A DNA stretch of 64,000 bases from Oscillospiraceae bacterium (lineage in GTDB: Bacteria; Bacillota; Clostridia; Oscillospirales; Oscillospiraceae): the NCBI GenBank assembly GCA_017458085.1, contig JAFTGE010000081.1:1-64000 (forward strand), read 5' to 3'. The notes beneath the pieces were generated by a model. The model searched no databases. It had not been told where the DNA came from and saw only the letters and a program-made list of their open reading frames with translations. Below, piece after piece: positions 20,874 through 38,504 of the stretch. The stretch's first letter is position 1. Each line of letters begins with the position of its first letter. Made by a program: the position numbers and the translations under genes.

Positions 20874-20885
20874 GATGAAAAGCCT

Positions 20886-20929: not shown

Positions 20930-21015
20930 GAGCAAACAATGTTTGTAAATTTTTTGTGAACGAGAGGCTGTATCAAAAATGATCGCCCTGAAAGGGTATG
21001 ACAAAAAAGACCGTC

Positions 21016-22718: not shown

Positions 22719-23073
22719 CTGTCATTCTTTTCAATACGGTCAGCATGGTCAGAACAGTGTCCGTGGCTCCGCGGATTGCATCATGCATAGCCCAAGAATA
22801 CAGCCCGCCGGCATTGTAGTATTTTGCGATCTGCTGCAAATTGGCCAGGATGCCGTTTAGTTCCCTCGCCGCTTTTTTCACTTCCTCTGGGTCGGCGATG
22901 ATCCGAAACGTCGTTTCCACTCTTCCGTGCACACTGCGATCACGGAGATAATCTGTGACCGTGGTATTTTGCTTTTTGGCCGATTCTACGATCTTCGCAT
23001 ATTCCGCCTCGGAGAAACGGATGGAAATCTGTTTTCTCTTTCTCAGTGATTCATCTTTCTTTGGCCTTGCCAT
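22681..23073 (-). CDS. mobC: Mobilization protein MobC
   Basis: ATG 23073 (GTGGAGGT upstream) gives 130 residues. A basic N-terminus (ARPKKDESLRKRKQ) precedes a ribbon-helix-helix (ISIRFSEAEYAKIVESAKKQNTTVTDYLRDRSV). The C-terminal MobC motif ELNGILANLQQIAKYYNAGG is followed by a helix. MobC proteins help the relaxase open oriT. The gene overlaps the relaxase start by 38 bases. The frame extends upstream without a good start and over a conserved non-coding block. Confidence 0.88.
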   Translation of the reverse strand: MARPKKDESLRKRKQISIRFSEAEYAKIVESAKKQNTTVTDYLRDRSVHGRVETTFRIIADPEEVKKAARELNGILANLQQIAKYYNAGGLYSWAMHDAIRGATDTVLTMLTVLKRMTGEGIGNYKTPVH

Positions 23074-23326
23074 GATTTTCGTACCTCCACTTTTTTCAAT
23101 TTTCAATATTCTGGCTTTGACGAGAATCGTCACCGGAGCGCCTTTCCCGAAAAAGGAAAGGCTGTATCCGCTGCGACTACGCCAGTAGGAGCCACAGAGA
23201 AAAACGCCGTTTTTCTCAAACCGAGGGATTGGGGAGCCGGATTCCCCAACGAGATCGCCGGACAGCAGAAAACCCGAAACAGGATTTCTGTCCGACACAG
23301 GCGTATCTTGCGTTATAACGGTCGTT

Positions 23327-23370
23327 CCCCTCACTTACCCCAATCTTCGGCCCCACTTTTGCAAGTACCT
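23327..23370 (-). repeat. 44-bp degenerate direct repeat, copy B
   Basis: Same orientation as 20886-20929, sharing the blocks TCACT.ACCCCAATCT and TTTTGCAAG.ACCT. Confidence 0.7.
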
Positions 23371-23446: not shown

Positions 23447-24862
23447 TTAACTGGTTATTTTGCAGAACACTTGCTTTGCTTTTTCTAGAATTACTTTCAC
23501 AAACGACCTGTTCAGCATAAAAAAGGTCGTCACTCCAAACAAAATGTTGAAGATATTGCTGAACAGCCTGTTGATAAAGCAAAGCGCCGTTTCTATAAGC
23601 AGGATTCCAACCACCAGCAGGATATGTTTGAAATCATAGCGAATTGCAACTAGCTTCTTTACGTCTATCATCCGAAAGATCATAAGGAATAAATAACTAA
23701 TCAATGTAGATCCGGAAGCAGCGTATAAGCCTATCTTTTTGATCAATGCCAAATCAACCAACAAATTACAGGTTGCCGCAGCCGTTGACGTAATTCCTAC
23801 ACTTAATGTTGCTTTATGCGCAATATAGATTCCCCCAAGAAATGAACATACACAATTGAAAAACATGGCAAGAAAGAGAATTGGCAACTGGGCATAGGCT
23901 TCCGAGTAATCGCCTCGAATTAAGAGCTGAAACAGAAGCGGTGCAGCACAGATCAACAGTCCCAAAAGGCCAGCAACCAAATCGAGAATTGTCCGGAACA
24001 TAGAACTGTAATATTCATTTACGTCTTTATCGTTGACGACAATGCTCGCGTTTTCAAGCCACGCCATATTAAAAGTACCGTGTGCAAGTGTTAAAATAGA
24101 GGGAATCTTGTTCGCGACAGCATATACGGCGTTGGCCGTGATACCCATAAACATTGTTACGACGAAACGATCAGAAACCCTCATCACCCACATAGACATA
24201 CTATTAGGCACCAACGGCCACGAATATTGCAGAAGCTCCTTTATTATTGAGAAATTTAACAGCTTAAAATCAATATACCGGAAAAGATGGATTCTGATTG
24301 ATAACGCTGTAAAGGATGCTGTGGATGCAGCCAGTAAGGCTAGCACTGCGCCAATCAGGCCAGTTCTGAAATACCGCACAAAAATCACAGCGAACAGCAT
24401 TTTTCCCAAAGCGCTGATAACAGCGCTTATCGAATAATCCATATTACGCTCCAATCCTCTGGCTATTTGCCGGGTATTATTTGAATAAATATCCACGAAA
24501 AAATACGCACAGATAAGGAGTTTAGTTTCGGATGATCCGCTCGGTAAAAGAAAATACAAGATAAGCAAAGCGACAATAGAGATCGGTGAAATAAAGGCAA
24601 AAATATTTGTTATTATAATTTTTACTTTTTTTTCGTCTTTCCTAGCGTCGATCAAAAAACGAAATGCGGCGGTTTGGATTTGCAGTGTAACAGCAGGAAG
24701 GAAGAGAGAGACTAAAATCGTTATTAAATCATAAGTTCCGTATTCCTCTTTTGTTAAGTATGCAGTAAGGATTGGCAGCGTAATAAACGCTGCCAATTTA
24801 GGTAAAAAAGTACCGATCGACAATATAATTGTATTTTTTGCCAGTTTCTCTTCCCTGCTCAT
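23447..24862 (-). CDS. Polysaccharide flippase (Wzx/MVF family)
   Basis: The 471 residues are almost entirely hydrophobic helices, about 12-14 in number. The start (KNTIILSIGTFLPKLAAFITLPILTAYLTKEEYGTYDLITILVSLFLPAVTLQIQTAAFRF) is the classic polysaccharide-biosynthesis export motif. Proteins of this type flip undecaprenyl-linked repeat units to the outer face. It is the last gene of the minus-strand cluster and overlaps the LicD gene by four bases. AT-rich codon use contrasts with the surrounding chromosome. Confidence 0.88.
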   Translation of the reverse strand: MSREEKLAKNTIILSIGTFLPKLAAFITLPILTAYLTKEEYGTYDLITILVSLFLPAVTLQIQTAAFRFLIDARKDEKKVKIIITNIFAFISPISIVALLILYFLLPSGSSETKLLICAYFFVDIYSNNTRQIARGLERNMDYSISAVISALGKMLFAVIFVRYFRTGLIGAVLALLAASTASFTALSIRIHLFRYIDFKLLNFSIIKELLQYSWPLVPNSMSMWVMRVSDRFVVTMFMGITANAVYAVANKIPSILTLAHGTFNMAWLENASIVVNDKDVNEYYSSMFRTILDLVAGLLGLLICAAPLLFQLLIRGDYSEAYAQLPILFLAMFFNCVCSFLGGIYIAHKATLSVGITSTAAATCNLLVDLALIKKIGLYAASGSTLISYLFLMIFRMIDVKKLVAIRYDFKHILLVVGILLIETALCFINRLFSNIFNILFGVTTFFMLNRSFVKVILEKAKQVFCKITS

Positions 24863-25665
24863 TCTCCTTCCCTTGCCTTTCGATATGCCCGGAAAAGATG
24901 CTCCGTTTTCCTTTTGTCTTCCGGTGGCAACTGCATATAATTTCCATAAAGCTTTTCCAGATAAGTTTTATACCCGACCGGAGCCGGGAGCATCATATCT
25001 TCAAAAGGTAAGAACACCGTCTCATTAAAAATATCTTTGGAATTCCGCTCGCGGAAAAGATGGTGGAGAGTGGTTGTTACACCAACATAGGCAGAACTAT
25101 CAAATGAGTATTTCAAAGCGACTTTTGTCAGCCGGTTGCAATAGTAATTTCCATCGTGCTTGAGGACTTTGTGAAGCAGCCGCTTGATAATAATAAATTT
25201 CTCATTTTCATAGTATTTTTGTCTAATTACTGCACTAATCATAGACCGAATTATTTTTATCCTATAAAGATGCAAATGCGAAATGATCTCATTCTGAGGA
25301 TATCCATCAATTGGGAAGATATCTACAAAAACACCAATCGTTTTTTCCTTGGTCGAGAATGTCAAGGATGTATTGGGATCCCACACTCTTGCAAATGGAG
25401 TATTATAATCTGAATCCGTCTCACAAGATGACACACAAAAGCGCCCCATGTGAAAGCTACGAATAAATTGCTCATAGTCAGGTCTCGGCATCATTAAATC
25501 CACATCATCATCCCATGGAATATAGCCTTGGTGACGCACTGCCCCCAGAAGTGTGCCACCAGCCATATAATATCGAATCTTATTCTCTTTCGCAAATCGA
25601 TCGATACAATGAATGATTTCAAGACCGATATCTTGTATTTCTTTGCACTCCAACTCCTGATTCAT
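24859..25665 (-). CDS. LicD family phosphotransferase (first of two)
   Basis: The 268-residue protein has the LicD signature YYMAGGTLLGAVRHQGYIPWDDDVDLMM near residues 32-60, with the metal-binding DDD/D set of the nucleotidyltransferase fold, and VFVDIFPIDGYP. LicD proteins move a phospho-alcohol (phosphocholine, or ribitol phosphate in the related fukutin/FKRP proteins) from a CDP carrier to a glycan. The neighbouring IspD-type cytidylyltransferase points to a CDP-activated donor made by this cluster. The exact group is unknown. Confidence 0.88.
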   Translation of the reverse strand: MNQELECKEIQDIGLEIIHCIDRFAKENKIRYYMAGGTLLGAVRHQGYIPWDDDVDLMMPRPDYEQFIRSFHMGRFCVSSCETDSDYNTPFARVWDPNTSLTFSTKEKTIGVFVDIFPIDGYPQNEIISHLHLYRIKIIRSMISAVIRQKYYENEKFIIIKRLLHKVLKHDGNYYCNRLTKVALKYSFDSSAYVGVTTTLHHLFRERNSKDIFNETVFLPFEDMMLPAPVGYKTYLEKLYGNYMQLPPEDKRKTEHLFRAYRKAREGE

Positions 25666-25681
25666 GGTCTTCTCCTCTCTA

Positions 25682-26734
25682 CTATACTAAATCTTTTAAG
25701 ATGGCTACGGTATGACCAAATCCTTCCTTGGCCGGGAAACAGCCTTTCCAACCAAGTGCAAGCAGGCTATCACTGTTTAAAGATGAATTACTCATTGGAT
25801 TGAAGCCTTGCTTTTCCATCTCTGTCGGTGTTTCGGTTATCAGCTTAACCCGGGCACAAGCAGTCAGAATCTCGGCCATTTGTTTTATGCTGATTACCGA
25901 GTCTGGATTAGAAATGTTATAAGCGCAGCAATTGTCCCCTTTCATCAAGATCGTCAAAATTGCAGACGCACAGTCGAGGCAATAGCAGTAGCTTCGAATT
26001 TGGGCACCATCGCTTTTCATCACAATATTCTCACCGCGGGAGACGGCAAATGGCCACTGAGATGAGACCCGATTGTCTTGCTTGCCCGCAGTAGGCCCAT
26101 AAATATGTCCGGGACGAACAATAACACTTTCCACTCCATATTCCTTTGCATAGGAAACACACAGCGTCTCTGCTGCCCGTTTTCCTACGGAATAGGAGTT
26201 GCGAGGATTCAGGATATCTATGAATCCATATTCATTCTCTACAAATGGAAGGTCATTGCTCTTCGTGCCATAAACCTCACTGGAACTGATATACAAAACC
26301 CTTTTAGATTTCTCTTTAAATGCATAATCCAGGAGTTCTCGGATCCCCAAGAAATTGCCGAGCATCGTCTCTACCGGTTCTTTCATAACAACACCGGGAT
26401 TTGCGTTTGCAGCGGCGTGAATCACATAATCAGCATGAACAGAAAGTTGATTATCTGTTTTTGTTGAATCGTATGGTATGAAGTTGAAATCTTTGCGCTC
26501 TGCCATATGACCAAAACGACGTATCATGCTTTCATAGGAGCGCCCAGCAGCTATGATATTAATGCTTGTGCCATGTACGTCGTTGTACCGAAACAGGATG
26601 TCCACTACAGCCGATCCAATCAATCCGGTAGCGCCAGTAATCATAATGCTTTTGCCGGACAGCGCTTCGAGAAAATGCATTGTCGCAATCGTTTTATCAA
26701 TATCTGAGATCCATAATTTGTTCTGGTAAAGCAT
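25682..26734 (-). CDS. NAD-dependent epimerase/dehydratase (extended SDR)
   Basis: The 350-residue protein has the Rossmann motif SIMITGATGLIGSAVVDIL near residues 29-47, the catalytic Ser region ISSSEVYG, and YxxxK in NSYSVGKRAAE (Y then K four later). It is most like NDP-sugar epimerases/dehydratases, and neither substrate nor nucleotide can be read. It lies between the IspD-type gene and the first LicD gene, so it may process the CDP-linked donor or its precursor. Confidence 0.85.
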   Translation of the reverse strand: MLYQNKLWISDIDKTIATMHFLEALSGKSIMITGATGLIGSAVVDILFRYNDVHGTSINIIAAGRSYESMIRRFGHMAERKDFNFIPYDSTKTDNQLSVHADYVIHAAANANPGVVMKEPVETMLGNFLGIRELLDYAFKEKSKRVLYISSSEVYGTKSNDLPFVENEYGFIDILNPRNSYSVGKRAAETLCVSYAKEYGVESVIVRPGHIYGPTAGKQDNRVSSQWPFAVSRGENIVMKSDGAQIRSYCYCLDCASAILTILMKGDNCCAYNISNPDSVISIKQMAEILTACARVKLITETPTEMEKQGFNPMSNSSLNSDSLLALGWKGCFPAKEGFGHTVAILKDLV

Positions 26735-26744
26735 CAGCGTCTCC

Positions 26745-27479
26745 TCATTTCAGCCAGCTTTGTTTTTTCGTATGGAGCAACGCTTCATAAATTAACATGT
26801 CGTCCACTGTGGTGATTTTCAGATTTGTTTCTGAACCTTTGGAAAAGAATACCGTTTCACCTAATAACTGCATCAATGTGCAGGAGGCGGCCGTATTGCT
26901 GATTCCCCTTTTTGATGCTTCCTCATGTGCCCAGAGAAGCTTTTCCAAACTGTATGTATGCGGTGTCTGTGTCCTGAAAAGCTGCTCGCGCGGTATGGAA
27001 ATGTCAGACGATTTTCCATCGTCATTGCTACGGAAAACCGCTTCGACACACGGAATTGCGGCTACTGCCGAGCCTTTCTCATGAAATGTAGCCAGTGAGT
27101 CAGAAATAATCTCACTAGAAACCATACATCTGTTTCCGTCATGTATCATTACAATGTCATCGGGCGATAGATGCTTAGCCAATTCTAACAGTCCATTATT
27201 AATCGATTCCTGGCCCGTAGCTCCGCCAGGAACCACCCAGTTCAGCTTTGTAATGTTGAACTGGTTCGCGTAAGCCTGAACCACGGCTGTCCAGGCGGAG
27301 AGTGTCACAACGATTATCGCATCTATTGCCGGATGGGTTTGAAACGCCTCCATCGTATGAATAATAAGGGGCTTGTTATCAACATGCATGAATTGTTTCG
27401 GGATATCCTGACCCATTCTGGTACCTGTACCCGCCGCTGTAAGTAAAGCAACAACTTTGTGTTTATTTGTTAAATCCAT
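26745..27479 (-). CDS. IspD/TarI-type cytidylyltransferase
   Basis: The 244 residues contain the family motif LLTAAGTGTRMGQDIPKQF near the N-terminus (CTP-binding loop and KQF), VVPGGATGQESINNGL, the VMIHDGNRCM metal motif and FRTQTPHTYSLEKL. IspD makes CDP-methylerythritol, while TarI-like paralogues make CDP-ribitol. In a glycan cluster next to LicD genes the TarI-like role (a CDP-polyol or CDP-alcohol donor) is more likely. HDGNR replaces the HDAAR usual in IspD. This assignment is an inference. Confidence 0.82.
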   Translation of the reverse strand: MDLTNKHKVVALLTAAGTGTRMGQDIPKQFMHVDNKPLIIHTMEAFQTHPAIDAIIVVTLSAWTAVVQAYANQFNITKLNWVVPGGATGQESINNGLLELAKHLSPDDIVMIHDGNRCMVSSEIISDSLATFHEKGSAVAAIPCVEAVFRSNDDGKSSDISIPREQLFRTQTPHTYSLEKLLWAHEEASKRGISNTAASCTLMQLLGETVFFSKGSETNLKITTVDDMLIYEALLHTKKQSWLK

Positions 27480-27504
27480 TTTTTATTCCTGCCCTTCTGC
27501 ACTT

Positions 27505-28392
27505 TCATAATTCAAGAGCAACATATGCATGCTTCTCTCTTTTATCCGGAGGGGGCAGCTGCATATAATTGCTGCCATATCTTTGTCGCAAGTATTCTTC
27601 TGGGTTTGCTGGCAGATTCCATTTTTCGCCTTCAAACAAACCTGTGCTTGGGTGTTCAAATAAAGAACTATTATATAATTCTCCAAAAAAATGATTGACA
27701 CCGCCTGGACACACAAGATATTTTCCTCTTTTATGAACACTCGAAAAGACTTGATCAGACAAGAACAGCCAACGCTCTAACGGCATAAGTGCAAATAGAT
27801 GGGAAGCCCATGTTCTTTTGCGAATTTCTTTCTGAATGCGAGGGTCATTGTTTGTATATTTCAATATGTTTTTCGAACAGTATCCAAGTCGAACCGAGCT
27901 GTCTACAAAAAGCAAAAACGTGCTCTTCAAGCCATGAATTGATCTCAACAAGGCATTGTCATATGTGTTTTCCAGTATAAAAATATCAATAAACAGACCG
28001 TGACTGTGATTCTCTACTGACTGGATTGACTGAACTTTCGTACCAATCTTTTCAATGCGTGGAAAACACATTAAATAGTCTTTGTCCCCCGGTGTCCTGA
28101 GCATATATCTGTCGTCTAAGCATTTGTCAAAAACCTTTTTAAACCTATCGAAATCCGATCTTTCCATAAAAAGGTCAATATCATCATCCCAAGGAATAAA
28201 GCCCTGGTGTCGTACCGCCCCCAGAATACTTCCTCCAGAAAGAAACCATTTGATGTGATTCTCAAGAAATACCGGAACTATATCTTTCATCATAGACATC
28301 AGCTCAGACTGAACCAGTTTTAACTTGCTATCATCTAGTATAATCACATCATCTGTGTATTTGGCTGTTTTAAACAAGTGTAAAAAGCCCAT
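27505..28392 (-). CDS. LicD family phosphotransferase (second)
   Basis: The 295-residue protein has the same core as the first LicD gene: WFLSGGSILGAVRHQGFIPWDDDIDLFMERSDFDRFKKVF (about 50-88) and GLFIDIFILENTYDN. Outside the core the two differ, so they probably act on different acceptors or donors. Both end in the motif ...YMQLPP(E/P)DKR. It follows the Wzy gene by 41 bases. Confidence 0.88.
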   Translation of the reverse strand: MGFLHLFKTAKYTDDVIILDDSKLKLVQSELMSMMKDIVPVFLENHIKWFLSGGSILGAVRHQGFIPWDDDIDLFMERSDFDRFKKVFDKCLDDRYMLRTPGDKDYLMCFPRIEKIGTKVQSIQSVENHSHGLFIDIFILENTYDNALLRSIHGLKSTFLLFVDSSVRLGYCSKNILKYTNNDPRIQKEIRKRTWASHLFALMPLERWLFLSDQVFSSVHKRGKYLVCPGGVNHFFGELYNSSLFEHPSTGLFEGEKWNLPANPEEYLRQRYGSNYMQLPPPDKREKHAYVALEL

Positions 28393-28433
28393 AAACTATT
28401 CCTCCAATAGTATTCTACTTGTTCTGGACAACT

Positions 28434-29642
28434 TCATCCTTCCATAGCTTCACGTTCTGGCAAGCACCTCGCCAGAATTCCTACTGTGGAGAAGAAAAGT
28501 ACTGTTACCCAGTCTGTAGTATCCAGATCTGATGTGATCAAAAATGCAAGATAAAAAAGCAACATGAATAATACTATTTTTCCTACATGTGAATCTTTAA
28601 GGATATCCCATAAGTGATGATATAAATGGGTCATACCTAAGACAAACAAGATTGTCCCAAGTATTCCGGTTTTGTAGAACATACCAATAGACGTACTATG
28701 AGAACCATAAGGATATCTGCCCAACATATATTTGATTCCCATACCAATAATGGGTGATTCCTTCCATGCTCTAGCTATGCTGTTCAAATAGATATTTAGT
28801 CTGGCATTATTGCTGCCGCCTCTTCTATTAAGGAATGCAACCGCCAAATTCTTGATAAGCGGAAACTCAATAATTGCAACTGTAATAACAACTCCAGCGC
28901 AAAGTATCACAAAAGCATTGATCAATCTCTTACTGATTGCCTTATCGTTAAGAACAAAATAAGCGGCAAGAAAAACCTGGGCAAAGGAGATGACTTCACC
29001 CATTCTGGAATGTGTAGCCAAAACCGGAACAAGGCCTATCATCGCCCATAAAATAACGCTCCAGGTGTTTTCCCCTGTTTTTTTGATAAGATAAACCAAC
29101 AGGGGGAATTGAATAATGAAAAAATGAGAAGGGCATATTACCGTATCCATCAATCCGCAAAAACGTGTCGTCACGCCTGATGATAGGTAATCTGTTTTTC
29201 GAAGATACAGGCTCATCCCAGCGATACTTATTACTGACCTGTTTGAAACGCGGTAAACAATGTAGATTGCAAACAGAATCAAAAAATTGGTTTTAAGGTA
29301 TTTGAGTAAGAGACTATAGTCCCGCGTTGTGAAGCTCTGTTTTTGTCTAATCAGCAAGAAGAAAAACAGCGCAATGATCCAAATTGACGAAGTATTAATG
29401 GCAGCCATCAGTCTCTCTGCGTCTGGTGATCCAGTTAGGACTTGGACAAGGATTGCTATATACTGAACAAGGCTGCACCCAATGAAGCATGCGGAAATAT
29501 TATCCAGTTTTATTCTCCTCTTATTTAGAAATACCAATACAAAGACAATGTACAAAACAAATTGTGCGGTCTTTGGCAGAATAACGAATAGCCACAAATA
29601 CTTGAAAACGGAGAGCTCACTTCTTTTTATACTTATCTTCAT
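28434..29642 (-). CDS. Putative O-antigen/polysaccharide polymerase (Wzy-like)
   Basis: The 402 residues contain about ten hydrophobic helices and one longer outer loop (about 270-325) with RGGSNNARLNIYLNSIARAWKESPIIGMGIKYMLGRYPYGSHS. This matches the Wzy_C/O-antigen ligase loop, with conserved Arg and the H-S/N-x-x-L-like HSTSIGMFYKTGILG segment. The likely role is polymerising flipped repeat units outside the membrane. Wzy proteins diverge fast, so identification rests on topology, loop and context. Confidence 0.8.
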   Translation of the reverse strand: MKISIKRSELSVFKYLWLFVILPKTAQFVLYIVFVLVFLNKRRIKLDNISACFIGCSLVQYIAILVQVLTGSPDAERLMAAINTSSIWIIALFFFLLIRQKQSFTTRDYSLLLKYLKTNFLILFAIYIVYRVSNRSVISIAGMSLYLRKTDYLSSGVTTRFCGLMDTVICPSHFFIIQFPLLVYLIKKTGENTWSVILWAMIGLVPVLATHSRMGEVISFAQVFLAAYFVLNDKAISKRLINAFVILCAGVVITVAIIEFPLIKNLAVAFLNRRGGSNNARLNIYLNSIARAWKESPIIGMGIKYMLGRYPYGSHSTSIGMFYKTGILGTILFVLGMTHLYHHLWDILKDSHVGKIVLFMLLFYLAFLITSDLDTTDWVTVLFFSTVGILARCLPEREAMEG

Positions 29643-29669
29643 ATAAAGTCCTTCTAAATGCCTCTCAAA

Positions 29670-30872
29670 TCAGTTAAAATGCTTTTTAAGCTGCCTCTTT
29701 AGCTTTGCGGGAAGCAGACTCTTGATTTGGCTGGAATACCTTCTATAGCCGATCTGGGCTTTGTACCCTTTCTCAAGACCTTTCCAGCCCTCTTCCACGT
29801 ATTCCTTTACTATTTCATCTCTTTTTTCGATTTGACTTGGCGCTCTTAATTGCGCATTTCCAGCCGCCATTTGTGAAAATGTCGATTCCTTTAAATCGAT
29901 GACAGTTTCATACTCTTCGATGGCGTCGGCACCTTTTCTCGTATTTGCAATAAGAAGAGAAATTCCAGCAGTTTCATCCCAGCCATTTTTCCCCAGGAAT
30001 TCTGGATGTTGTTTTTCTATCCCCCAGTAATCTCCTATTGTTAGATCTGCAGGCCTATATTCACAAGCGTACTTGCATGTATAGCAGTTCTCTCGATAAA
30101 TCCAGCCCTTCGTAAAATAATAAAGGTAAGAGGATGCACTCTGCCATATTGTAACTTTTTTTCCATTAATTACTGCGCATCCGTTAATCCCCCAACCGAT
30201 TGACTTGTCGCGAAATGTGAACTGTTCAACCTTTCCGCCATGCTTCTCCTCAAGCAGTCTTAAGTAATCCTTTAGCATCCTGACGCTCGGAACGCCATGA
30301 CAAACAATGTCAACCGTTATGAGGTTTTCATATTCTTTTCCCAAGTATTCTTTAAAGCCCGCAATCTGACACGGTGTCCCGGAGTACAAGACCTTTCTCC
30401 CGGTCTGCAGCTGCTTCTTTGCCTCAGAAAAGGTTCTTTCTGTATTGCTGTGGGCATACTTCGAGCCCTGAAGCTTCTCTAAAGTCGTCTCATCTTCTAT
30501 CCCTATGTGATGAACTCCCCAAAGCTCATCAAAAGCAGCCCCGTATACAATGCCGCCTTCTTTAAGAACAGACAATGCGATTGCTGCGAAAATCCCCGCG
30601 GAAGCAGACTTTTTCGCCCGGTCTTCATCTGTGCTGACTGCCGCAAAGCATTCGATCGGTGAATTCGTCTCTTCTCTGTTTTGAAACGCACAGACCGTCT
30701 TACAACATCCACAACGTATACACCGTTCTGTGTTGATCACAGGATAGATAAATCCGCCTTCATCCTCCTGCATAGTAATGGCGTTCGCCGGACATATGTT
30801 AAGGCATGCTCCGCAGCCGCAACATGCTTCTTTTGCATGAAAAAGTTCTGGGACCGCATTCATTTTATCCAT
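29670..30872 (-). CDS. Coenzyme F420 hydrogenase beta-subunit-like iron-sulfur protein
   Basis: The 400-residue protein starts with two 4Fe-4S motifs, CCGCGACLNICP and CIRCGCCKTVC (about residues 17-55). The FrhB-like domains follow: GSKYAHSNTERTFSEAKKQLQTGRKVLYSGTPCQIAGFKEYL, then NLITVDIVCHGVPS and a conserved Cys pair in NCYTCKYACEYRPADLTIGDYWG. Such proteins sit next to polysaccharide pyruvyl transferases in many glycan clusters; their redox role is not known. It overlaps the pyruvyl transferase by 13 bases, so the two probably work together. Confidence 0.88.
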   Translation of the reverse strand: MDKMNAVPELFHAKEACCGCGACLNICPANAITMQEDEGGFIYPVINTERCIRCGCCKTVCAFQNREETNSPIECFAAVSTDEDRAKKSASAGIFAAIALSVLKEGGIVYGAAFDELWGVHHIGIEDETTLEKLQGSKYAHSNTERTFSEAKKQLQTGRKVLYSGTPCQIAGFKEYLGKEYENLITVDIVCHGVPSVRMLKDYLRLLEEKHGGKVEQFTFRDKSIGWGINGCAVINGKKVTIWQSASSYLYYFTKGWIYRENCYTCKYACEYRPADLTIGDYWGIEKQHPEFLGKNGWDETAGISLLIANTRKGADAIEEYETVIDLKESTFSQMAAGNAQLRAPSQIEKRDEIVKEYVEEGWKGLEKGYKAQIGYRRYSSQIKSLLPAKLKRQLKKHFN

Positions 30873-31969
30873 TGATTTAAATAGTTCCGTGTATTCTCCT
30901 GTTCGCTTCGTATAACAGCATCAGTGACTGAGTACTGGATCGGCTTCTCAATCGTTTCCGGCAGCGCTTCTATAGATGCGATCATTCGGGTTTCAAGCCG
31001 CAATCTTTGCAGAAGATCCGTCATTTTCTGGCTATTGCCATATCCCGTTTCTCTGATAATCGACACAAACTGTTTATGTGTAATGACTGAAAGAATAGCG
31101 CCATGAAAGGTGTCGGTCACTATGCATGCGGCATGCTGAAAATACGCAATCACTTCAAACGGATTCACATCGATAAACTTATCGCAGCAATCCTGGACGC
31201 CGCCAATGCAAAAGATCTTCAGTCCTTTGCTGTCGGCATATTTTCGGATCTCCCGGCACTCTTCTCTGCTGAATCTCCCCGAATATCCATAAAGAAGCAT
31301 ATAATCCGTATCCGGAACAGAGGACGGGATTTCCTTGCACTTGCCGATAAAATCATACACAAGGACAGGATCGAGGTTATACACAGGTTCCATGCCGGTC
31401 AGTTCTTTTACTATCTCTCCACTATTCTTATCCCGAACAGAGATTGCATCAAAGTCGTGTAGCCACCCTGCGACCTTGCCTCTCACTCTGTATTGCTCAA
31501 GCTTTCCAAGCGTAGTGTTGCCGAAGGAGGCAGCGTAACTGATTAGCTTTCTTGCCTTGTTATCCTGCCCGAACAGCTCAGGAGAGAATCCAACATTTGT
31601 ATTGTTCTGCACGCAATTGAATACTTCATCAGAACCGATCACAAGGATGTCAAGCTCCGGACTATAATTTCTCACCTCGGTAATTCCAAGGTACGGATAG
31701 TAATTCGCAGCATAATTCTTCTTATAGGCAATGAAACGCAGCTTCTCTCTCAGCGGACCGTTTTGTTTCAGAACATCTCTAACCTTGGATATTTTTCTCC
31801 CCAGACCTGTGCCGCCGTCTGCGGGAATTAAGGTCTCGCCTGGATGGAAGTCAACAAATTGTACTTCGCAGCCCAGATCCTCCAAGATGTGTTTCAGACC
31901 ATACGCCTGCAAAAAAGACCCGTAGTTTTGAATCCGCTGCATTGATAAAATTCCGACACTTTTTCCCAT
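30860..31969 (-). CDS. Polysaccharide pyruvyl transferase family protein
   Basis: The 369-residue protein has the family start VGILSMQRIQNYGSFLQAYGLKHILEDLG, a LVIGSDEVFN motif, YAASFGNTTL, ISVRDKNSGEIVKELTG and the late VTDTFHGAILSVI motif. Members add ketal-pyruvate from phosphoenolpyruvate to sugars, giving the polymer a negative charge. It overlaps its F420-hydrogenase-like partner downstream, and its ATG overlaps the stop of PssE-like gene upstream by one base. Confidence 0.88.
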   Translation of the reverse strand: MGKSVGILSMQRIQNYGSFLQAYGLKHILEDLGCEVQFVDFHPGETLIPADGGTGLGRKISKVRDVLKQNGPLREKLRFIAYKKNYAANYYPYLGITEVRNYSPELDILVIGSDEVFNCVQNNTNVGFSPELFGQDNKARKLISYAASFGNTTLGKLEQYRVRGKVAGWLHDFDAISVRDKNSGEIVKELTGMEPVYNLDPVLVYDFIGKCKEIPSSVPDTDYMLLYGYSGRFSREECREIRKYADSKGLKIFCIGGVQDCCDKFIDVNPFEVIAYFQHAACIVTDTFHGAILSVITHKQFVSIIRETGYGNSQKMTDLLQRLRLETRMIASIEALPETIEKPIQYSVTDAVIRSEQENTRNYLNQWIK

Positions 31970-32460
31970 TACCGCACCAGCTCATTCGCAATTTTTCCAA
32001 ACTCTGCGCAGAATTTTTCATTGTTGTGCTGTAAGGTGTTTTGCATGTGCGCTGTGATTTCTTCATATGTTTCAAGCATTTCTTCAAGCTTATTCACATC
32101 TTCCACAACAATGATATTCCGTTGACGTTCCGCAACTGCCTTTACAAAATCCACTTGATGATCATTGACATGCTCATTGAATTCCGCTCTGCGTGGAACA
32201 ACGATCGGTATCTTTCCTATTTGCAGCGGCATGATAAAGCTCGATGGACCGCCATGTGTGATCACAATTCTCGCTTCTGCAACATTCTTTAGCATTTCCT
32301 GATAGGGAAACAGCTTTTGCCATTGACAGTTTTTGGGTTCATATGTACTAAAACCCGTTTGTATAATGACGCTCTCTTCATGTTTTGCAGCCCACTTATC
32401 CATATACGCAACCAATCTGGCAAAAGGTTGCTCATGGGTCCCCACCGTCACAAATATCAT
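31969..32460 (-). CDS. Glycosyltransferase subunit, PssE/Alg13-like
   Basis: The 163 residues match the C-terminal half of GT28-type enzymes: MIFVTVGTHEQPFARLVAYMDKW at the start, a GFSTYEP strand, and the nucleotide-sugar site ARIVITHGGPSSFIMPLQIGKIPIVVPR...HVNDHQ. In pneumococcal and lactic-acid-bacteria systems this part (Cps14G/PssE) carries catalysis and works with a membrane-bound PssD/Alg14 partner, encoded next door. The pair usually adds the second sugar, often beta-1,4-galactose. Confidence 0.9.
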   Translation of the reverse strand: MIFVTVGTHEQPFARLVAYMDKWAAKHEESVIIQTGFSTYEPKNCQWQKLFPYQEMLKNVAEARIVITHGGPSSFIMPLQIGKIPIVVPRRAEFNEHVNDHQVDFVKAVAERQRNIIVVEDVNKLEEMLETYEEITAHMQNTLQHNNEKFCAEFGKIANELVR

Positions 32461-32497
32461 GCTTCTTTCACCCCTACCGATTCCGTTACTTAAAGAT

Positions 32498-32947
32498 TCA
32501 GAAGATACTTCCCAGATTCACCGCTTTAGGATACACTTCCTTCATTTCTTCCCATTCCACGATGAACCGGTCCGCCACCGGGTAGCAAAGTTTCCCGGCA
32601 ATCGTCGATTGGTCAATTCGATCAAAAACCTCAATATAGATCGTCTTGGCACCCATCAGCTTGCCGATCCAAAAGAAGGGGATGGCTGGAGCTGCTCCAC
32701 TACTGATAATGAGATCCGGCCGCTCCTTCCGGAGAATTTTGATTGCCCTGTGAGTATTGATAATCAGCGCTTTGATGGACCTGTTGCTCGGATAATACAC
32801 GGGATACATCTTCTCACCTTGAAGAAGGCTTCTGGCATCCTCTTTATCAAAGGTTGCCCAGAAACGCTCCTTATCCTGCCAAAAGGGCTTAAGCATATAC
32901 AAATGCGTTAAATGCCCGCCAGATGACCCAACAAAACAGATTTTCAT
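32498..32947 (-). CDS. Glycosyltransferase subunit, PssD/Alg14-like
   Basis: The 149-residue partner of the PssE-like protein starts with MKICFVGSSGGHLTHLYMLKPFW (GGH motif). It has LIISSGAAPAIPFFWIGKLMGAKTIYIEVFDRIDQSTIAGKLCYPVADRFIVEWEEM. Alg14-type subunits recruit the catalytic subunit to the membrane and help bind the acceptor lipid. It is 37 bases upstream of the PssE gene and starts just after the priming transferase. Confidence 0.9.
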   Translation of the reverse strand: MKICFVGSSGGHLTHLYMLKPFWQDKERFWATFDKEDARSLLQGEKMYPVYYPSNRSIKALIINTHRAIKILRKERPDLIISSGAAPAIPFFWIGKLMGAKTIYIEVFDRIDQSTIAGKLCYPVADRFIVEWEEMKEVYPKAVNLGSIF

Positions 32948-34393
32948 TCACATTGCTCCCTTTCGCGAAAACAGCACGCCTACCGTTTTAAACAAAATCT
33001 TTAAATCCAAGCCCGGACTCCAGTTGGTGATGTACTCGGTGTCCAGCCGCACAACTTCTTCAAAATCGGTGATCTCACTGCGGCCGCTGACCTGCCAGAG
33101 CCCGGTGATGCCCGGCTTGATTGCCAGGCGCGCCCGGTGGTGGTACTCATACTTCTCCCACTCATCCACCGTGGGCGGACGGGTGCCGATCAAACTCATG
33201 TCCCCCCGCAGGACGTTATAGAATTGACCAAACTCGTCAAGCGAAGTCTTGCGTATAAATTCTCCAATGCCGGTTTTCTTCGTCCCGTCAGGGAGAATCT
33301 CGTTACCGATGATGCGTGGATCAAAATCGAGCTTGAACATCATGCCGTCCTTGACCCGGTTTTGCTCCAGCAGATCCTTTTTGCGCTCCTCCGCGTCCAT
33401 ATACATGGAGCGAATCTTGTACATCTTAAAACGCTTGCCATTCTGTCCGATTCTCTCTTGTGCAAACAGGATTGGCCCTGGGGATTGCTTTTTTATGATC
33501 GGCCCGATGATCGCGATGATCAAGAGCGCAACCAGGCTGCCTATAAGTCCCCCGAGGATATCAAAGGCGCGCTTCATGACCGCTTGGATTGGTGTAGCGT
33601 AATTAATAGAAGTGGTTAGAACCGTGGTTCCGCCAATTTTCTCTGAAAAGCGTTTGACACCGTTCCGACTCATATTGGGGACATGATAGTGAGTCGGTAC
33701 CGCCATCAATGCGCAGTCGTCCATTAGTTTGATGACTCTCTCATCTGAAAGCGGCGCGTCTATGTATACAGAATCAACCCACTCTCGGACAATGTAATTC
33801 CCAACGGTGGCCATATCCGCAACAATGGGGTAACCTGCGATTTCACTCTTCTCACTCGCCTCTGTAAGAACTGTGCCGACGATCTTATAGCCGCCGACAG
33901 TGTCCTTGCTAAGTCGCTGTAATATCTCATTTGCGGAATCCGGACTAGCAACAACCAGCATGCTGTTTTTCTTCTCTCTGCTTTTGCTGTGACGCTTTAG
34001 GTACAGCTTCCAGAGGATTCTCAGCCCATAGCCGACAGACGTATGGAACAGGAATGTAAGGAAAAGCAGAATACGCGAATACGCATCGCCGGACTGCGTG
34101 GCAAACATATAGACCGTCGCAATAGCGAATACATAGAAGCAATGCTTGATGGTTTCCGCAGCCTCCGTATAGTATCCACGGCTCATAACATTGTGCATGG
34201 AGTTAAAGAGAACCATCACCAGTGCATTGATCAGAATGAGCATAAAGCCGAGGCTTCGATAAAGCGGCGTAGCATAGACCCAGGAGTGATGCCGGAACAA
34301 CCCCGCCAGAATAAAAGCAATTTGGAGGCTGATTTCATCCATCACAAGAAAGTCAAAATGCTTCGACCAGCCCTGCGCGTTTCTCTTATACAT
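32948..34393 (-). CDS. Undecaprenyl-phosphate sugar phosphotransferase (priming enzyme)
   Basis: The 481-residue protein has four N-terminal TM helices (about 18-120), a CoA-binding-like cytoplasmic domain (about 140-270), a fifth TM region (about 278-302: RAFDILGGLIGSLVALLIIAIIGPII), and the catalytic bacterial sugar transferase domain. Motifs seen are QERIGQNGKRFKMYKIRSM, FIRKTSLDEFGQFYNVLRGDMSLIGTRPP and KPGITGLWQVSGR. It loads the first sugar-1-phosphate (often glucose or galactose) onto undecaprenyl phosphate. It is the first gene of the cluster, with ATAAGGAGG before the ATG and a long hairpin just ahead of that. Confidence 0.93.
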   Translation of the reverse strand: MYKRNAQGWSKHFDFLVMDEISLQIAFILAGLFRHHSWVYATPLYRSLGFMLILINALVMVLFNSMHNVMSRGYYTEAAETIKHCFYVFAIATVYMFATQSGDAYSRILLFLTFLFHTSVGYGLRILWKLYLKRHSKSREKKNSMLVVASPDSANEILQRLSKDTVGGYKIVGTVLTEASEKSEIAGYPIVADMATVGNYIVREWVDSVYIDAPLSDERVIKLMDDCALMAVPTHYHVPNMSRNGVKRFSEKIGGTTVLTTSINYATPIQAVMKRAFDILGGLIGSLVALLIIAIIGPIIKKQSPGPILFAQERIGQNGKRFKMYKIRSMYMDAEERKKDLLEQNRVKDGMMFKLDFDPRIIGNEILPDGTKKTGIGEFIRKTSLDEFGQFYNVLRGDMSLIGTRPPTVDEWEKYEYHHRARLAIKPGITGLWQVSGRSEITDFEEVVRLDTEYITNWSPGLDLKILFKTVGVLFSRKGAM

Positions 34394-34423: not shown

Positions 34424-34469
34424 ATGGCAAAGAGGCTTGGCACTCTGTTTGGGCAAGCCTCTTTGCCAT
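34424..34469 (-). terminator. Hairpin in the leader of the polysaccharide operon
   Basis: A perfect 16-bp stem (ATGGCAAAGAGGCTTG) with a 14-nt loop, followed on the minus strand by TTTTGCGCC, ends about 30 bases before the priming-transferase ATG and just before its ribosome binding site. It can end helicase transcripts or act as an attenuator for the cluster. Confidence 0.65.
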
Positions 34470-34578: not shown

Positions 34579-36945
34579 TTAAGCGCCGACACGGCTTTCC
34601 GCCGGTACTTGAACTTGCCGATGTGATACTTTTTCGCTTGGCATACTTACCGGCTTAGCTGTGGGCCGCAACCCGATCTTTGCAAGGTATTCTTTCTGCT
34701 CCTCGGTCAAGGGCTTGCCTTTGCCGTTGAGCTTCCCGATCTGCGTATACATCCAGCGAGAGAGCCATACGCCGTTCACTACATAGTCTGCGGGCATTTT
34801 CAGATCGCCGTGCTCCTGATAGTACTGCTCCAACAGCGCATATTTCTCGCCCCAGGGATCCTTCTCCCAGACCATGCCGAGCGCGTCCAGCTTTTGCTTT
34901 CGCTCTTCGGATAGGCGTCCGGCTTTCCAAAAGTCCCGCTGCCGCGCTATCCAAGCCCCTAACGCCAAACCGGAAGATGTTTTATATTTGGATGGGACGT
35001 TGATATTTCCGTGTTCGCTCTGATACCGGGCCGCCTCTTCGTAGGCGCTGTCCCAATCACTCTGGAACTTGCCGTTCCAGAGCATGCCAAGCTCATTCAA
35101 GCGTAGGAGCTGATCTTCTGACAGCCGTAGCGTGTTCTTCCTGTAATGCGTCCGCAGATTGGCGATCCACACGCCGAGGCGGAGGCCATTAGCGTCTATG
35201 TAGTGAGTTGGGACGTTCAGATCGCCGTGCGCTCGGTGGTATTCCACTGCGGCGGCGTAGTTGCGCTCAAAGAGATAGTCCAGCACATCCCACTGCATAC
35301 CAAGCTCGTCCAGCGCCTGAATCCGCTCGTCAGTGAGATAGCTGTTTCTGATGCCGCTTTTCCGGTAATTCCGCTGGTTGGCCAGCCATCTGCCCAGCTT
35401 CAAGCCCTCATCCGTCTCATACAGACGGTTGATCAGCAGATCACCGTGCCGTTCGTAGTAGCGCCTGGCCGCGGTATAAAAGCGCTCCCAGCTCTGATCG
35501 CTCGCACTTTCCCAGCGCATTCCAAGGTCGTCTAAGAGCTTGACTTGCTCTTCTGTCAGAGTCCCGACCACTTTCCCAGCGCGCACACGCCGTTGATTGT
35601 TCAGCCAATTGCCGAGGGAATAGCCGGACGCCGTTATATAACGCTTAGGTACGTTCAGATCGCCGTTCTCGGTGTGGTATTTCTTAGCCTCCGCGTACAT
35701 CAGATCCCAGGAGGCGGTCAGCGTCTCGTTGAGCTTCGCGAACAGCTCCACACAGTCCCGTACCTCGTCGATGACCTTGAAGTGCTCGTTGACGATCTCG
35801 CTATCTAAGCCGAGAGAACGGTAATAGGTGGTGGCCAGCTGCATCTCTTCCTCGATGGCCCCGATGCTGTATAGATTCTCGATGTTCAGCACGATATCGA
35901 AGATCACGGCATCCCTGGTCTTGCCAGCCGACAGAGCGCGGCCGATCTGTTGTTTATAGATGATGGGCGAAACCGTGGGCCGCAACAGGATAACCCCGCT
36001 GACATCCGGGACATGGACGCCCTCGTTGAGCATGTCGATGCAGAACAGAAGCTTCAGGTGCTCACTGGCATCGGCTTTGAAAGAGGCGAAAGCTTTGTCG
36101 GTATCCGGATCAGCGGAATAGGCGGTGTAGACATGGGGCCTTTCATCCACCTTGCCAAACCACTCCGGCACTTTGGTGACCATATCCCGCATGTGCTCGG
36201 CATTGGCGCAGAAAACGAGATATTTTCCCGTACGGTCGGATATGTGCTTATTGAAGATCTCGTCCAGCCCTTCTGCTTTTTCGAGGGCGCGGCGCAAGGC
36301 TTCCAGATACTCTTCGCCCTTGTCCCGGACCGCCTTACTTTTGGCCTGTTGCAGGCGGGATTGGTATTTCTCCAGCTGGTTCTGATAGGTAAACAGCGAA
36401 AGCACATATTTCGGCGGGTTCAAAATGCCGCGCACGATAGCCTCGCCCAGACTCATTTGGGAAGCAATGTTGTTGCCGAAAAGCTCGTCTGCCATATCCC
36501 GCTGGTTGTCGAGATAGCGGATATTGGTGGCCGAAAGGCCCAAAATCGGGGGTTCCGGATAAGCTCTCAGCAGGCGTTGCACGCCCGCTCCCCACATCTC
36601 CGCGCCGCAACGGTGGAACTCATCCAGAATGATGTAATCCGGTTGGATCTTGCTGATCTCTTCCGGCGTCATCAGCATCAGCTTGGCGTAGGTGTAAAAC
36701 CAGATATTCTCCGGTTGATAGCCGTCCGCCGCTGCTCTCAGGTTTTCCAACTGGGTTTTGAAGATATATTCCGATGGTGACAGCCAGCAGACCACCGCAT
36801 CGGGATTGTCCTCGCAGAGCTTGAAGCCGATGAAGGACTTGCCTGTGCCGGTAGGGTGGATGATGGTGGCCTTTCTCGTCTCGGCAAGGAGCTCCAGCGC
36901 AGAGGCATATGCCTCCGCATTGTGCGGATAGAGCGATATAGCCAC
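34579..36945 (-). CDS. DEAD/DEAH-box helicase with five helicase-associated repeats
   Basis: GTG 36945 is chosen because GGGAGGTG precedes it; an in-frame TTG at 36960 lacks this. The 788-residue protein has an SF2 motor: Walker A PTGTGKS (31-37), DEFH box (108-111), SATN motif (GLSATNIRYL), and motif VI QQIGRALSAGK near 335. Then come five repeats of about 65 residues, each with W...Y..A..Y...(H/N)GDLN(V)P, then G..LG.W...QR and LDELGM.W. These are helicase-associated (HA) domains thought to bind nucleic acid. It stands alone between a possible invertible promoter and the polysaccharide operon. The cellular role is unknown; defence or mobile-element control is a guess. Confidence 0.9.
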   Translation of the reverse strand: MAISLYPHNAEAYASALELLAETRKATIIHPTGTGKSFIGFKLCEDNPDAVVCWLSPSEYIFKTQLENLRAAADGYQPENIWFYTYAKLMLMTPEEISKIQPDYIILDEFHRCGAEMWGAGVQRLLRAYPEPPILGLSATNIRYLDNQRDMADELFGNNIASQMSLGEAIVRGILNPPKYVLSLFTYQNQLEKYQSRLQQAKSKAVRDKGEEYLEALRRALEKAEGLDEIFNKHISDRTGKYLVFCANAEHMRDMVTKVPEWFGKVDERPHVYTAYSADPDTDKAFASFKADASEHLKLLFCIDMLNEGVHVPDVSGVILLRPTVSPIIYKQQIGRALSAGKTRDAVIFDIVLNIENLYSIGAIEEEMQLATTYYRSLGLDSEIVNEHFKVIDEVRDCVELFAKLNETLTASWDLMYAEAKKYHTENGDLNVPKRYITASGYSLGNWLNNQRRVRAGKVVGTLTEEQVKLLDDLGMRWESASDQSWERFYTAARRYYERHGDLLINRLYETDEGLKLGRWLANQRNYRKSGIRNSYLTDERIQALDELGMQWDVLDYLFERNYAAAVEYHRAHGDLNVPTHYIDANGLRLGVWIANLRTHYRKNTLRLSEDQLLRLNELGMLWNGKFQSDWDSAYEEAARYQSEHGNINVPSKYKTSSGLALGAWIARQRDFWKAGRLSEERKQKLDALGMVWEKDPWGEKYALLEQYYQEHGDLKMPADYVVNGVWLSRWMYTQIGKLNGKGKPLTEEQKEYLAKIGLRPTAKPVSMPSEKVSHRQVQVPAESRVGA

Positions 36946-36963: not shown

Positions 36964-37005
36964 GAAAAAAGCGCCAAGTCCGGTTTTGATCAGACTTGGC
37001 GCTTT
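36964..37005 (-). terminator. Strong terminator-like hairpin in the helicase leader
   Basis: A perfect 13-bp stem (AAAGCGCCAAGTC) with a 12-nt loop is followed on the minus strand by TTTTTTCGTTTT and then the helicase ribosome binding site. Nothing fits as a promoter between it and the gene, so helicase transcripts must pass through it. Confidence 0.8.
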
Positions 37006-37013
37006 GATAGCAT

Positions 37014-37155
37014 GGAGATTAAGGTGTACCTTTTTCCCAAGCGTTCACGAAGCCTTGATATGCCAAACCAAGTCTAAGTTTATTCATTTTAATTTACCAT
37101 AAATGCTCATATTTTTCAATACATATGCCGGAGAAAAAGGTACACTTTTTTCTTC
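37014..37155. repeat. Two hix-like 26-bp dyad sites in inverted orientation
   Basis: Site 1 (37014-37039) has core GT at 37026-37027 and site 2 (37130-37155) has core AC at 37142-37143. Written outward from the cores, the four 12-bp half-sites are ACCTTAATCTCC, ACCTTTTTCCCA, ACCTTTTTCTCC and ACTTTTTTCTTC. They flank 116 bp of AT-rich DNA next to a serine recombinase gene. This is the layout of an invertible segment; a resolvase res region is the alternative. Confidence 0.7.
37091..37119 (-). promoter_or_regulatory. Promoter inside the candidate invertible segment
   Basis: TTGAAA (37114-37119), 17-bp spacer and TAAATT (37091-37096) on the minus strand, pointing at the helicase gene in the orientation given. 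Confidence 0.55.
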
Positions 37156-37161
37156 AAATAC

Positions 37162-37761
37162 TTATGCAGACTGATCATTCGCCCATTTTAGAAAGGTTTT
37201 GTGGTTGACACCAAGGCGGGATGCTGCGCTGCGAGCGGAGACCTTGCCGCTGTGCCACAGTTCATAGACCGCCGGATACTCGTCCGGTTTTTCTTTTGGC
37301 CTACGTCCCAGATGCTCCCCGCGCGCCTTGGCCGCCGCGATCCCCTCTGCCTGCCGCTGACGGATAAACTCTCGCTCGGTTTGCGCCACATAGCTTAATA
37401 GCTGCAGTACGATATCCGCGATCAGCGTTCCGGTCAAGTCGCGTCCCTGTCTGGTATCCAACAGCGGCATATCCAGCACAACGACAGCCGCACCCTTGTC
37501 TTTTGTGATCACCCGCCACTGTTCCAAAATCTCATCATAGTTTCTGCCCAGCCGGTCAATACTCTTGATGACGAGAGTATCGCCCGGCTTTAGTTTTTTG
37601 AGCAGACGGCGGTAGGCTGGTCGTTCAAAATCCTTGCCGGATTGCTTATCCTGATAGATCTGCTTGTCCAGAACACCAAACTCATGCATAGCCAACAGCT
37701 GGCGATCCAGATTCTGCTCTTTGGATGAGACTCTCACATATCCGTAAATCTTGTTTTCCAT
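37162..37761 (-). CDS. Serine recombinase (resolvase/invertase family)
   Basis: ATG 37761 with TTGGAGGAAAC before it gives 199 residues, the size of Hin/Gin/Tn3-type enzymes. The catalytic domain has YGYVRVSSKEQNLDRQ (active Ser about residue 10), the YQDKQSGKDFERPAYRRLLKKLKPGDTLVIKSIDRLGRN motif with the key Arg residues, then the long E helix (LLSYVAQTEREFIRQRQAEGIAAAKARG). The C-terminal HTH is EYPAVYELWHSGKVSARSAASRLGVNHKTFLKW. It could act on the dyad sites a few bases beyond its 3' end. Confidence 0.92.
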   Translation of the reverse strand: MENKIYGYVRVSSKEQNLDRQLLAMHEFGVLDKQIYQDKQSGKDFERPAYRRLLKKLKPGDTLVIKSIDRLGRNYDEILEQWRVITKDKGAAVVVLDMPLLDTRQGRDLTGTLIADIVLQLLSYVAQTEREFIRQRQAEGIAAAKARGEHLGRRPKEKPDEYPAVYELWHSGKVSARSAASRLGVNHKTFLKWANDQSA

Positions 37762-37834
37762 TTTGTTTCCTCCAATCAAGGATAGTGTTGTTTAGAGGAA
37801 ACCTTGATATGCAGATGTTTTCAATAATTGCGTT

Positions 37835-37855
37835 TGTCGTAACAATTATACGACA
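37835..37855. promoter_or_regulatory. Operator-like dyad between recombinase and XRE gene
   Basis: TGTCGT-N9-ACGACA is a perfect inverted repeat. A weaker relative with a TTTGTCG half-site lies at 37877 onward over the -10 TATAAT (37887-37892) of the XRE gene. Binding by the XRE protein would control both divergent genes. Confidence 0.5.
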
Positions 37856-37921
37856 TGAATTATTAAATTACAACGCTTTGTCGAAGTATAATTTACGAAA
37901 ATAACAAGTGCTGGTGATGGT

Positions 37922-38227
37922 ATGGAAAACATTCTGAATCGAATTACGGCCATGCGGGAGACCCGTGGCTGGACGGAATACCAGTTGGCAGAAAAATCAG
38001 GCTTACCGCAGTCTACGATTTCTTCCTGGTATCGGAAGAACATGATTCCCAGTGTTCCTTCACTGTCAAAAATATGCTCCGCTTTTGGTATTACACTGTC
38101 CCAGCTTTTTTCAGAAGATGGGGTATATTGCGACCTGACCGATGAGCAAAAGGACCTGCTGGAGCGCTGGGCCTGCTTCACGAAGGAACAACAGGAAGCG
38201 TTACTTCGGTTCTTGAAAACTCTCTAA
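37922..38227 (+). CDS. XRE-family regulator
   Basis: The 101-residue protein has an N-terminal HTH (ILNRITAMRETRGWTEYQLAEKSGLPQSTISSWYRKNMIPSVPSLSKICSAFGITLSQLF, residues 4-63) and a short C-terminal helical part (TDEQKDLLERWACFTKEQQEALLRFLKTL). This matches small Clostridia regulators. It is divergent from the serine recombinase, with a dyad between them, so it may control recombinase expression. A TATAAT -10 lies 30 bases upstream, without a clear -35. Confidence 0.82.
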   Translation: MENILNRITAMRETRGWTEYQLAEKSGLPQSTISSWYRKNMIPSVPSLSKICSAFGITLSQLFSEDGVYCDLTDEQKDLLERWACFTKEQQEALLRFLKTL

Positions 38228-38420
38228 CACAGCGGATCTCCCCTCGGTTTTTAGTCATTGCCATCGCTATTTGCTCGTGGTGAATTGCTCCGCCGCAGCT
38301 TGGACAGGGCAGGTTATGACAAGAAAGACCGATCTTTTCTCAAATTGCATAGAGGAATGATACCAGATCGGATCAGAAGCATCCGATTCTTCTCTGAGCT
38401 TATGTAAATAATCGTGACAC

Positions 38421-38481
38421 AGCAGCCTCTTGCTTTCGCTTCCTTTCACGATGTGAAAGGAAGCGAAAGCAAGAGGCTGCT
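38421..38481. repeat. 61-nt perfect palindrome
   Basis: Two 29-bp arms (AGCAGCCTCTTGCTTTCGCT... and its exact complement) are separated by GAT. No T-run follows on either side. Confidence 0.85.
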
Positions 38482-38504
38482 ACTATTCTCCAAACGGATA
38501 ACAT

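Follow-up and report, generated by a model that had tools for sequence, protein, structure and literature searches.

A putative invertible promoter beside a small serine recombinase gene in an Oscillospiraceae bacterium, and its relatives

What is the role of a pair of inverted dyad sites that lies just past the 3' end of a small serine recombinase gene and ahead of a helicase gene and a run of polysaccharide-type genes? The question is raised by the 64,000-nucleotide stretch of Oscillospiraceae DNA analyzed here (the window), in which the order of elements on the minus strand is a recombinase promoter, leader and recombinase gene, the right site, a promoter-like sequence, the left site, a terminator hairpin, the helicase ribosome binding site (RBS) and gene, a second hairpin, and eleven polysaccharide-type genes. 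In the reading that we favor, with a probability of about 0.86, a promoter-like sequence is flanked by the two inverted 26-bp sites next to the recombinase gene. The 114-bp segment that they delimit is likely flipped by the recombinase, an event that would join the promoter to the helicase gene or cut it off.

The left recombination site, on the helicase side (37014..37039, plus strand), is a 26-bp dyad GGAGATTAAGGT-GT-ACCTTTTTCCCA with its GT core at 37026-37027, and the right site, on the recombinase side (37130..37155, minus strand), is a 26-bp dyad GAAGAAAAAAGT-GT-ACCTTTTTCTCC with a minus-strand GT core at 37142-37143. The two are inverted, share the same core and are identical at 20/26 positions; the putative invertible segment between the cores (37028..37141) is 114 bp long, and the site centers are 116 bp apart, or ~11 helical turns. 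These dyads, their inverted arrangement and their spacing were already reported in a preliminary description of the locus and were re-derived here, as were the cores, both of which are GT once the two sites are put in a common orientation. A measure combining dyad symmetry with inverted repetition gives 34 for this region and no more than 29 in 500 shuffles; the inverted-repeat component by itself (18/22) is equalled by the best shuffle, and the region is exceptional only when the dyads are counted in as well. The inverted pair of dyad sites is not a product of chance. At up to three mismatches the site pattern is found at two places only in the 2.67-Mb assembly, and these are the two sites of this pair. 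Shuffles preserving two-base blocks were used for the site-pair, terminator, leader-fold, dyad-score and flank/interior identity tests, and single-base shuffles for the promoter-place tests and the all-pairs comparison of segment interiors.

The recombinase gene (37165..37761, minus strand) is a full-length open frame encoding 199 aa, with a resolvase/Sin-type catalytic domain and three C-terminal helices, and a promoter scan predicts TTGTAA-N17-TATAAT (37845..37873, minus strand) upstream of it. The description of a Hin-sized serine recombinase beginning seven bases from the sites is corrected here, as the minus-strand gene starts near 37761 and it is the stop codon (37162-37164) that lies six bases from the right site. 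Residues invariant among 31 aligned recombinases include S12, R10, R70 and R73; in the alignment these fall on the Sin active-site motif, and we take them to have the corresponding active-site roles. Among sequences of solved structure the closest match is Sin resolvase (2r0q, E 3.7e-29), followed by gamma-delta (3.5e-21) and Gin (1.1e-17). The best matches to a fold model of the protein (pLDDT 84.7, pTM 0.60) are gamma-delta resolvase entries, which are full-length resolvases; the rmsd of the full-length superpositions is high (14.8-18.6), probably as a result of different domain placement in the model. A Cro/C1-type helix-turn-helix gene (37922-38227, plus strand) is divergently transcribed from the recombinase gene and is a possible regulator of it.

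Within the genus, relatives of the recombinase are found in 63/101 genomes at E 1e-3, many of these matches being weak, and in 29/102 at 1e-60, and within the family at 1e-64 in 133/400 genomes and 54/101 genera. Loci were taken from part of the places listed in the family search (29 and a further 80), from viral contigs (31 loci) and from species genomes (the best 80 of 539 loci, mostly from uncultured Oscillospiraceae and other Clostridia, many of them from animal guts). A site motif built from 28 sites at 14 loci, those of the window included, identifies a pair of at least 18 bits beside the 3' end of the recombinase gene in 124/229 locus records with enough downstream DNA, corresponding to 103 unique pairs; the 229 records include some places fetched twice, and 23 further records are cut by contig ends. 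The remaining 105 records have no pair above threshold, and some of these are probably sites too divergent for the motif. As controls, 687 shuffles gave 17.5 bits at most, and the sequence on the 5' side of the recombinase gene passes in 3/227 records. A pair is present in 24/29 records at recombinase identities of at least 75%, in 55/78 at 70-75%, 13/32 at 65-70%, 23/65 at 60-65% and 9/25 below this (pooled, 79/107 at 70% or more versus 45/122 below). In two loci (L015 and L016) strong inverted-repeat pairs precede the recombinase gene rather than follow it, and here the switch is possibly on the other side.

Inversion by serine recombinases needs matching 2-bp overlaps in inverted orientation. 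The core dinucleotides match when read inverted in 83 of the 103 unique pairs with a non-palindromic core and in 10 with a palindromic one; eight pairs are mismatched and two match in direct orientation. The corresponding counts for the 89 pairs outside the motif training are 70 inverted, 10 palindromic, 8 mismatched and 1 direct. Four of the ten non-matching pairs have gaps greater than 350 bp and are probably false pairs, and these are still counted. The cores vary among loci (AC, GT, AG, AT, AA, TG, CT, TC and others) yet agree within each pair when read inverted.

The predicted promoter within the segment (TTGAAA-N17-TAAATT, with TG ahead of the -10) lies at 37091..37119 on the minus strand and points at the helicase gene (ON-like), so that the promoter of the preliminary description was found as described, directed at the helicase from 37119 to 37091. 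Its -10 element, TAAATT, is weak, and promoter-like sites are not enriched in the surrounding 4 kb (4 found versus 3.1 expected from shuffles). The significance of the promoter comes from its stereotyped place and not from the scan score alone, as its -35 starts 23 bp from the center of the right site, the place preferred among relatives; the -35 of the best promoter is located 20-24 bp from a site center in 43/93 relatives versus 6/93 when shuffled. Of these 43 promoters 13 are directed away from the recombinase gene (ON-like) and 30 toward it. The window has in this form what defines an inverton, a promoter between inverted recombination sites, here a predicted consensus promoter at a stereotyped place.

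The first gene reached from this promoter (34579..36945, minus strand) codes for a helicase with DEAD/ResIII and Helicase_C domains and five Helicase-associated (HA) stretches, with a likely GTG start at 36945 and an RBS, GGGAGGTG. An intrinsic terminator hairpin that was absent from the preliminary description lies between the switch and this RBS (36968..37005, minus strand), with a 15-bp stem, a folding energy of -25.7 kcal/mol (z -4.7) and a T-run. The RBS starts six bases past the T-run, so no promoter fits between terminator and helicase, and with the terminator in between the helicase likely depends on read-through. The proposal that the switch turns the helicase on and off thus stands as regards promoter orientation, whereas a simple ON/OFF link is qualified by the terminator, and flipping by itself may be insufficient for expression of the helicase and sugar genes. 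Hairpins are found at the equivalent place in six relatives (L003, L004, L005, L007, L009 and L010). A terminator after the switch as a family-wide rule was rejected, as one is found on the cargo strand in 12/92 loci and on the opposite strand in 9/92 (shuffled 2.5%); the cargo is a helicase or a methyltransferase in nine of the 12 cargo-strand loci. Antitermination by a LoaP/UpxY-like NusG paralogue was likewise rejected, the 93.5%-complete assembly containing one NusG only.

Beyond the helicase gene is a second terminator-like hairpin (34425..34468, minus strand; -28 to -30 kcal/mol, z -3.5) followed by TTTT, and then the eleven polysaccharide-type genes (23447..34393, minus strand), coding for sugar transferase, Alg14-like, GT28-C, pyruvyl transferase, FrhB-like, Wzy, LicD, IspD, epimerase, LicD and flippase proteins. 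The switch may also control this operon. In two relatives (L255 and L256) a helicase 64-65% identical to that of the window follows the recombinase gene and is itself followed by unlike gene sets that look sugar-related, a call made by eye from the first 70 residues. This suggests that the switch and helicase travel together in front of exchangeable polysaccharide genes.

The cargo of the other relatives is diverse. A Pfam match was obtained for 17/30 first downstream frames scanned, and those matched include sugar and glycosyl transferases, O-antigen ligase, an S-layer protein, DNA methyltransferase, HerA-type ATPases, Hsp70 and a symporter, among others; defence models were run on six proteins.

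The segment also has a relationship with the recombinase mRNA leader (37762..37812, minus strand), which is predicted to form a hairpin GTTTCCTC.../...GAGGAAAC over the RBS. The upstream side of this hairpin (37798-37812) is a motif of which a copy (GCATATCAAGGCTTC) is located inside the segment (37049..37063, minus strand) and matches at 14/15 bases. In the final 68 nt ahead of the start codon the RBS pairing probability exceeds 0.7 in 48/72 relatives, with a mean of 0.79 versus 0.63 in shuffled leaders and a fold z below -2 in 27/72; the arms vary among loci while their complementarity, as judged by eye, is kept. Copies of the leader in the segment score at least 20 in 17/81 loci versus 2.1 expected, with the opposite relation in 5, although some of the matches are A/T-rich, and 10 of the 17 sit 5-12 nt inside the promoter-distal site. 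A sense copy is on the strand transcribed from the predicted promoter in the window and in L044, L055, L073, L108 and L112, and because this strand bears the sense copy a read-through recombinase message would carry its complement in the OFF orientation only. Cofolding raises RBS accessibility by more than 0.3 with a locus's own OFF segment in 3/72 cases, with its own ON segment in 1/72 and with the segments of other loci in 1/72, and the change in the window is 0.04. That the complement in the segment might open the leader hairpin is a speculation to which cofolding lends weak support, and the leader copy is explained equally well by a protein operator common to both places, or by an origin of the segment in the recombinase promoter. 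A search for known RNA elements at the leader or switch returned none, the only hits being sub-threshold miRNA look-alikes on both strands at an unrelated long palindrome (38417-38485).

These leader copies bear on the best surviving alternative, that the segment does invert but serves chiefly to regulate the recombinase itself through an antisense transcript, an altered protein tail and leader pairing, with the helicase being driven from elsewhere. The terminator between promoter and helicase also speaks for it, as does the recombinase frame ending within the segment in 32/93 relatives (L004-L007, L040, L045, L103 and others), in 29 of which inversion would alter the C-terminal tail. In the window, however, the recombinase frame is already closed before the site is reached, so inversion would leave the tail unchanged, and the lack of room for another promoter between terminator and helicase speaks against a helicase driven from elsewhere. 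The first downstream frame, moreover, is co-oriented in 52 of the 58 loci with any open frame past the right site, a frame chosen mechanically. We regard self-regulation as the chief role of the segment as unlikely, but as the most serious competitor to the invertible promoter for the helicase.

Evidence that such segments flip comes from comparison of their interiors between loci. In an all-pairs comparison 45 pairs of loci align at a score of at least 44 (null maximum 30), 30 of them in the same sense and 15 reversed; since the same few loci (L006, L066 and L169) recur, the 15 reversed pairs reduce to some four or five independent cases. Clearest among these are L167 and L169, whose interiors are 96.2% identical when one is inverted and 44.3% forward, with flanks in the same sense at 94.0% and 93.5%; L006 and L007 have interiors 85.6% identical inverted versus 56.7% forward. 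The window itself is reversed relative to L003, which is from a different species, with interiors 72.2% identical inverted versus 57.8% forward (shuffled maximum 66.7%) and flanks 77.0% identical on the left and 62.5% on the right. The downstream gene of L003 matches the window helicase over residues 1-73 only (76.7%), and the match does not continue into the last 0.27 kb of the contig. L003 is thus OFF-like and the window ON-like. Both orientations thus exist between species, in the three pairs window/L003, L006/L007 and L167/L169, with one orientation per genome. The reversal in related species, the strongest line of evidence in this analysis, indicates that the segment likely flips, and because each genome has a single orientation, flipping in this strain is inferred.

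The single orientation in the window and the differences between its sites at 6/26 positions would also be expected if the pair were a locked relic that formerly inverted and no longer flips in this strain. We consider this improbable, as the two sites share one core, the recombinase has an unbroken reading frame, and differences at 4 to 10 positions are usual within the pairs of relatives. Least tenable, and rejected on core orientation and reversed segments, is a resolvase res region, with the dyads as binding subsites of a recombinase that serves to resolve dimers or cointegrates, for which the Sin and gamma-delta matches and the relaxase and integrase genes beyond the sugar genes could be cited, but which is opposed by the predominance of inverted over direct cores, the reversal of the enclosed segment in relatives with flanks in the same orientation, the position of the sites after the gene around a promoter at a stereotyped place, and the lack of any further genome match to the site pattern at up to three mismatches. 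The preference of the preliminary description for a phase switch over a res region is upheld.

If the invertible promoter reading is correct, a recombinase dimer would bind each dyad site, and the two dimers would meet across a short U-turn of ~11 helical turns, the loop being the whole segment. They would then cut at the common GT core, rotate and rejoin; with two inverted copies of one core, this would yield an inversion. In the present orientation the promoter would read toward the helicase gene (ON-like), and in the other it would read antisense into the 3' end of the recombinase gene (OFF-like). The terminator before the helicase and the second one before the sugar genes would constitute a second gate, with transcripts having to read through both.

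The spacing of the sites is itself informative. Gaps in relatives cluster at 84, 93-96, 105-106, 113-117, 126-128, 134-139 and 145-147 bp, and then at 159, 179 and 189 bp, near multiples of 10.5 bp and thus whole helical turns, with main steps at 84, 95, 105, 115.5, 126, 137 and 147 bp. At a preset period of 10.5 the resultant is 0.664 for the 49 values that remain once the dominant 112-119 class and all gaps of at least 200 bp are set aside. The pattern holds when relatedness is allowed for. With recombinases clustered at 80% identity (31 values) the best anchored period is 10.5 (cosine 0.739) and the resultant was reached by 0/20,000 random sets; P is 5e-5 with clustering at 75% and about 0.001 at 70%. 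There are outliers at 77-79, 102, 121 and 124 bp, and the 128 group is ~2 bp off. Two pairs of close relatives, L005/L004 (91% recombinase identity) and L053/L043 (95%), differ in spacing by 10 bp (close to one turn) and 33 bp (close to three turns) respectively, differences that from sequence comparison appear to be natural insertions or deletions of whole turns. We infer that the dimers on the two sites come together over a short loop and would have to face the same side of the helix, and the whole-turn spacing points to an enhancer-free synapse with a short loop.

A bolder proposal is that these proteins form a separate class of enhancer-free serine invertases in which the DNA between the sites acts as a ruler. 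Only segments of whole turns would bend into a synapse, and the tight loop would take over from the Fis enhancer in selecting direction and limiting rotation to a single turn. In addition, pairing between the leader of the recombinase message and its 3' end would be confined to one orientation, setting recombinase output by orientation. We offer this as a tentative idea that we consider unlikely.

Invertible promoters and serine invertases are already known, and by its sequence the present system appears to operate as an invertible promoter served by a dedicated serine invertase. The Mpi-type serine invertases of Bacteroides are proteins of ~200 aa associated with short invertible promoters between inverted repeats at capsular polysaccharide loci, and Mpi acts on many loci in trans. 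The window is alike in its ~200-aa serine recombinase, its short promoter segment between inverted repeats and its polysaccharide cargo, but the recombinase failed the NCBIfam Mpi model NF009949 (56.7 bits versus a cutoff of 272), and the only two matches to the site pattern in this genome both adjoin the recombinase gene. Common to the window and to Hin, Gin and Pin are a small serine recombinase and inverted dyad sites with a shared 2-bp core, although the recombinase is nearer to Sin than to Gin and so is not a closest relative of the Hin/Gin group. The host lineage is not known to have Fis. Hin is reported to use a Fis-bound enhancer between the sites and an HU-aided loop that spans ~100 bp from one hix site to the enhancer and limits subunit rotation (PMC3798978). 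In the window, by comparison, the whole segment is 114 bp, and the spacing in relatives is in whole turns. Sin and gamma-delta resolvases are the closest in solved sequence and in fold, but the sites here are inverted and not direct (2/103 pairs direct), and the two genome matches at up to three mismatches include no accessory sites, of which more divergent ones are possible.

The window also has in common with the Clostridia invertons, cwpV among them, and with fim a short invertible segment ahead of surface genes. A terminator is reported to matter at cwpV of C. difficile, and at fim the message of the fimE recombinase ends differently according to orientation (PMC2784873). However, the cwpV promoter is outside the segment and its terminator forms in the OFF state, whereas in the window it is the promoter that lies within the segment and the terminator that lies beyond it. 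The inverton group reported as most strongly enzyme-linked has 32/33 members from Clostridia and pairs with a tyrosine recombinase (PMC11892184), in contrast to the serine recombinase here. Among the matches listed in a literature search by title and start of abstract, whose scope excluded most subscription journals, there was no description of this recombinase family or of a whole-turn spacing rule.

Such recombinases occur, at a strict cutoff, in more than half of the sampled genera of the family, and their site pair precedes very diverse cargo. The spacing rule offers a direct and inexpensive way to test how a serine recombinase forms an enhancer-free synapse across about 90 bp, and aids the detection of such switches in any assembly.

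Two further observations concern the surroundings of these genes. One relative (L259, G027:C39) has three recombinase-like genes in tandem ahead of an HA helicase, one of them with RQTPKDQ at the expected active-site serine motif. In the window, tyrosine integrase, MobA-type relaxase and NikA-like genes (19234-23334, minus strand) adjoin the polysaccharide genes and a YchF-type GTPase gene (18052-19125), and everything from there as far as the recombinase may make up an integrative mobilisable island.
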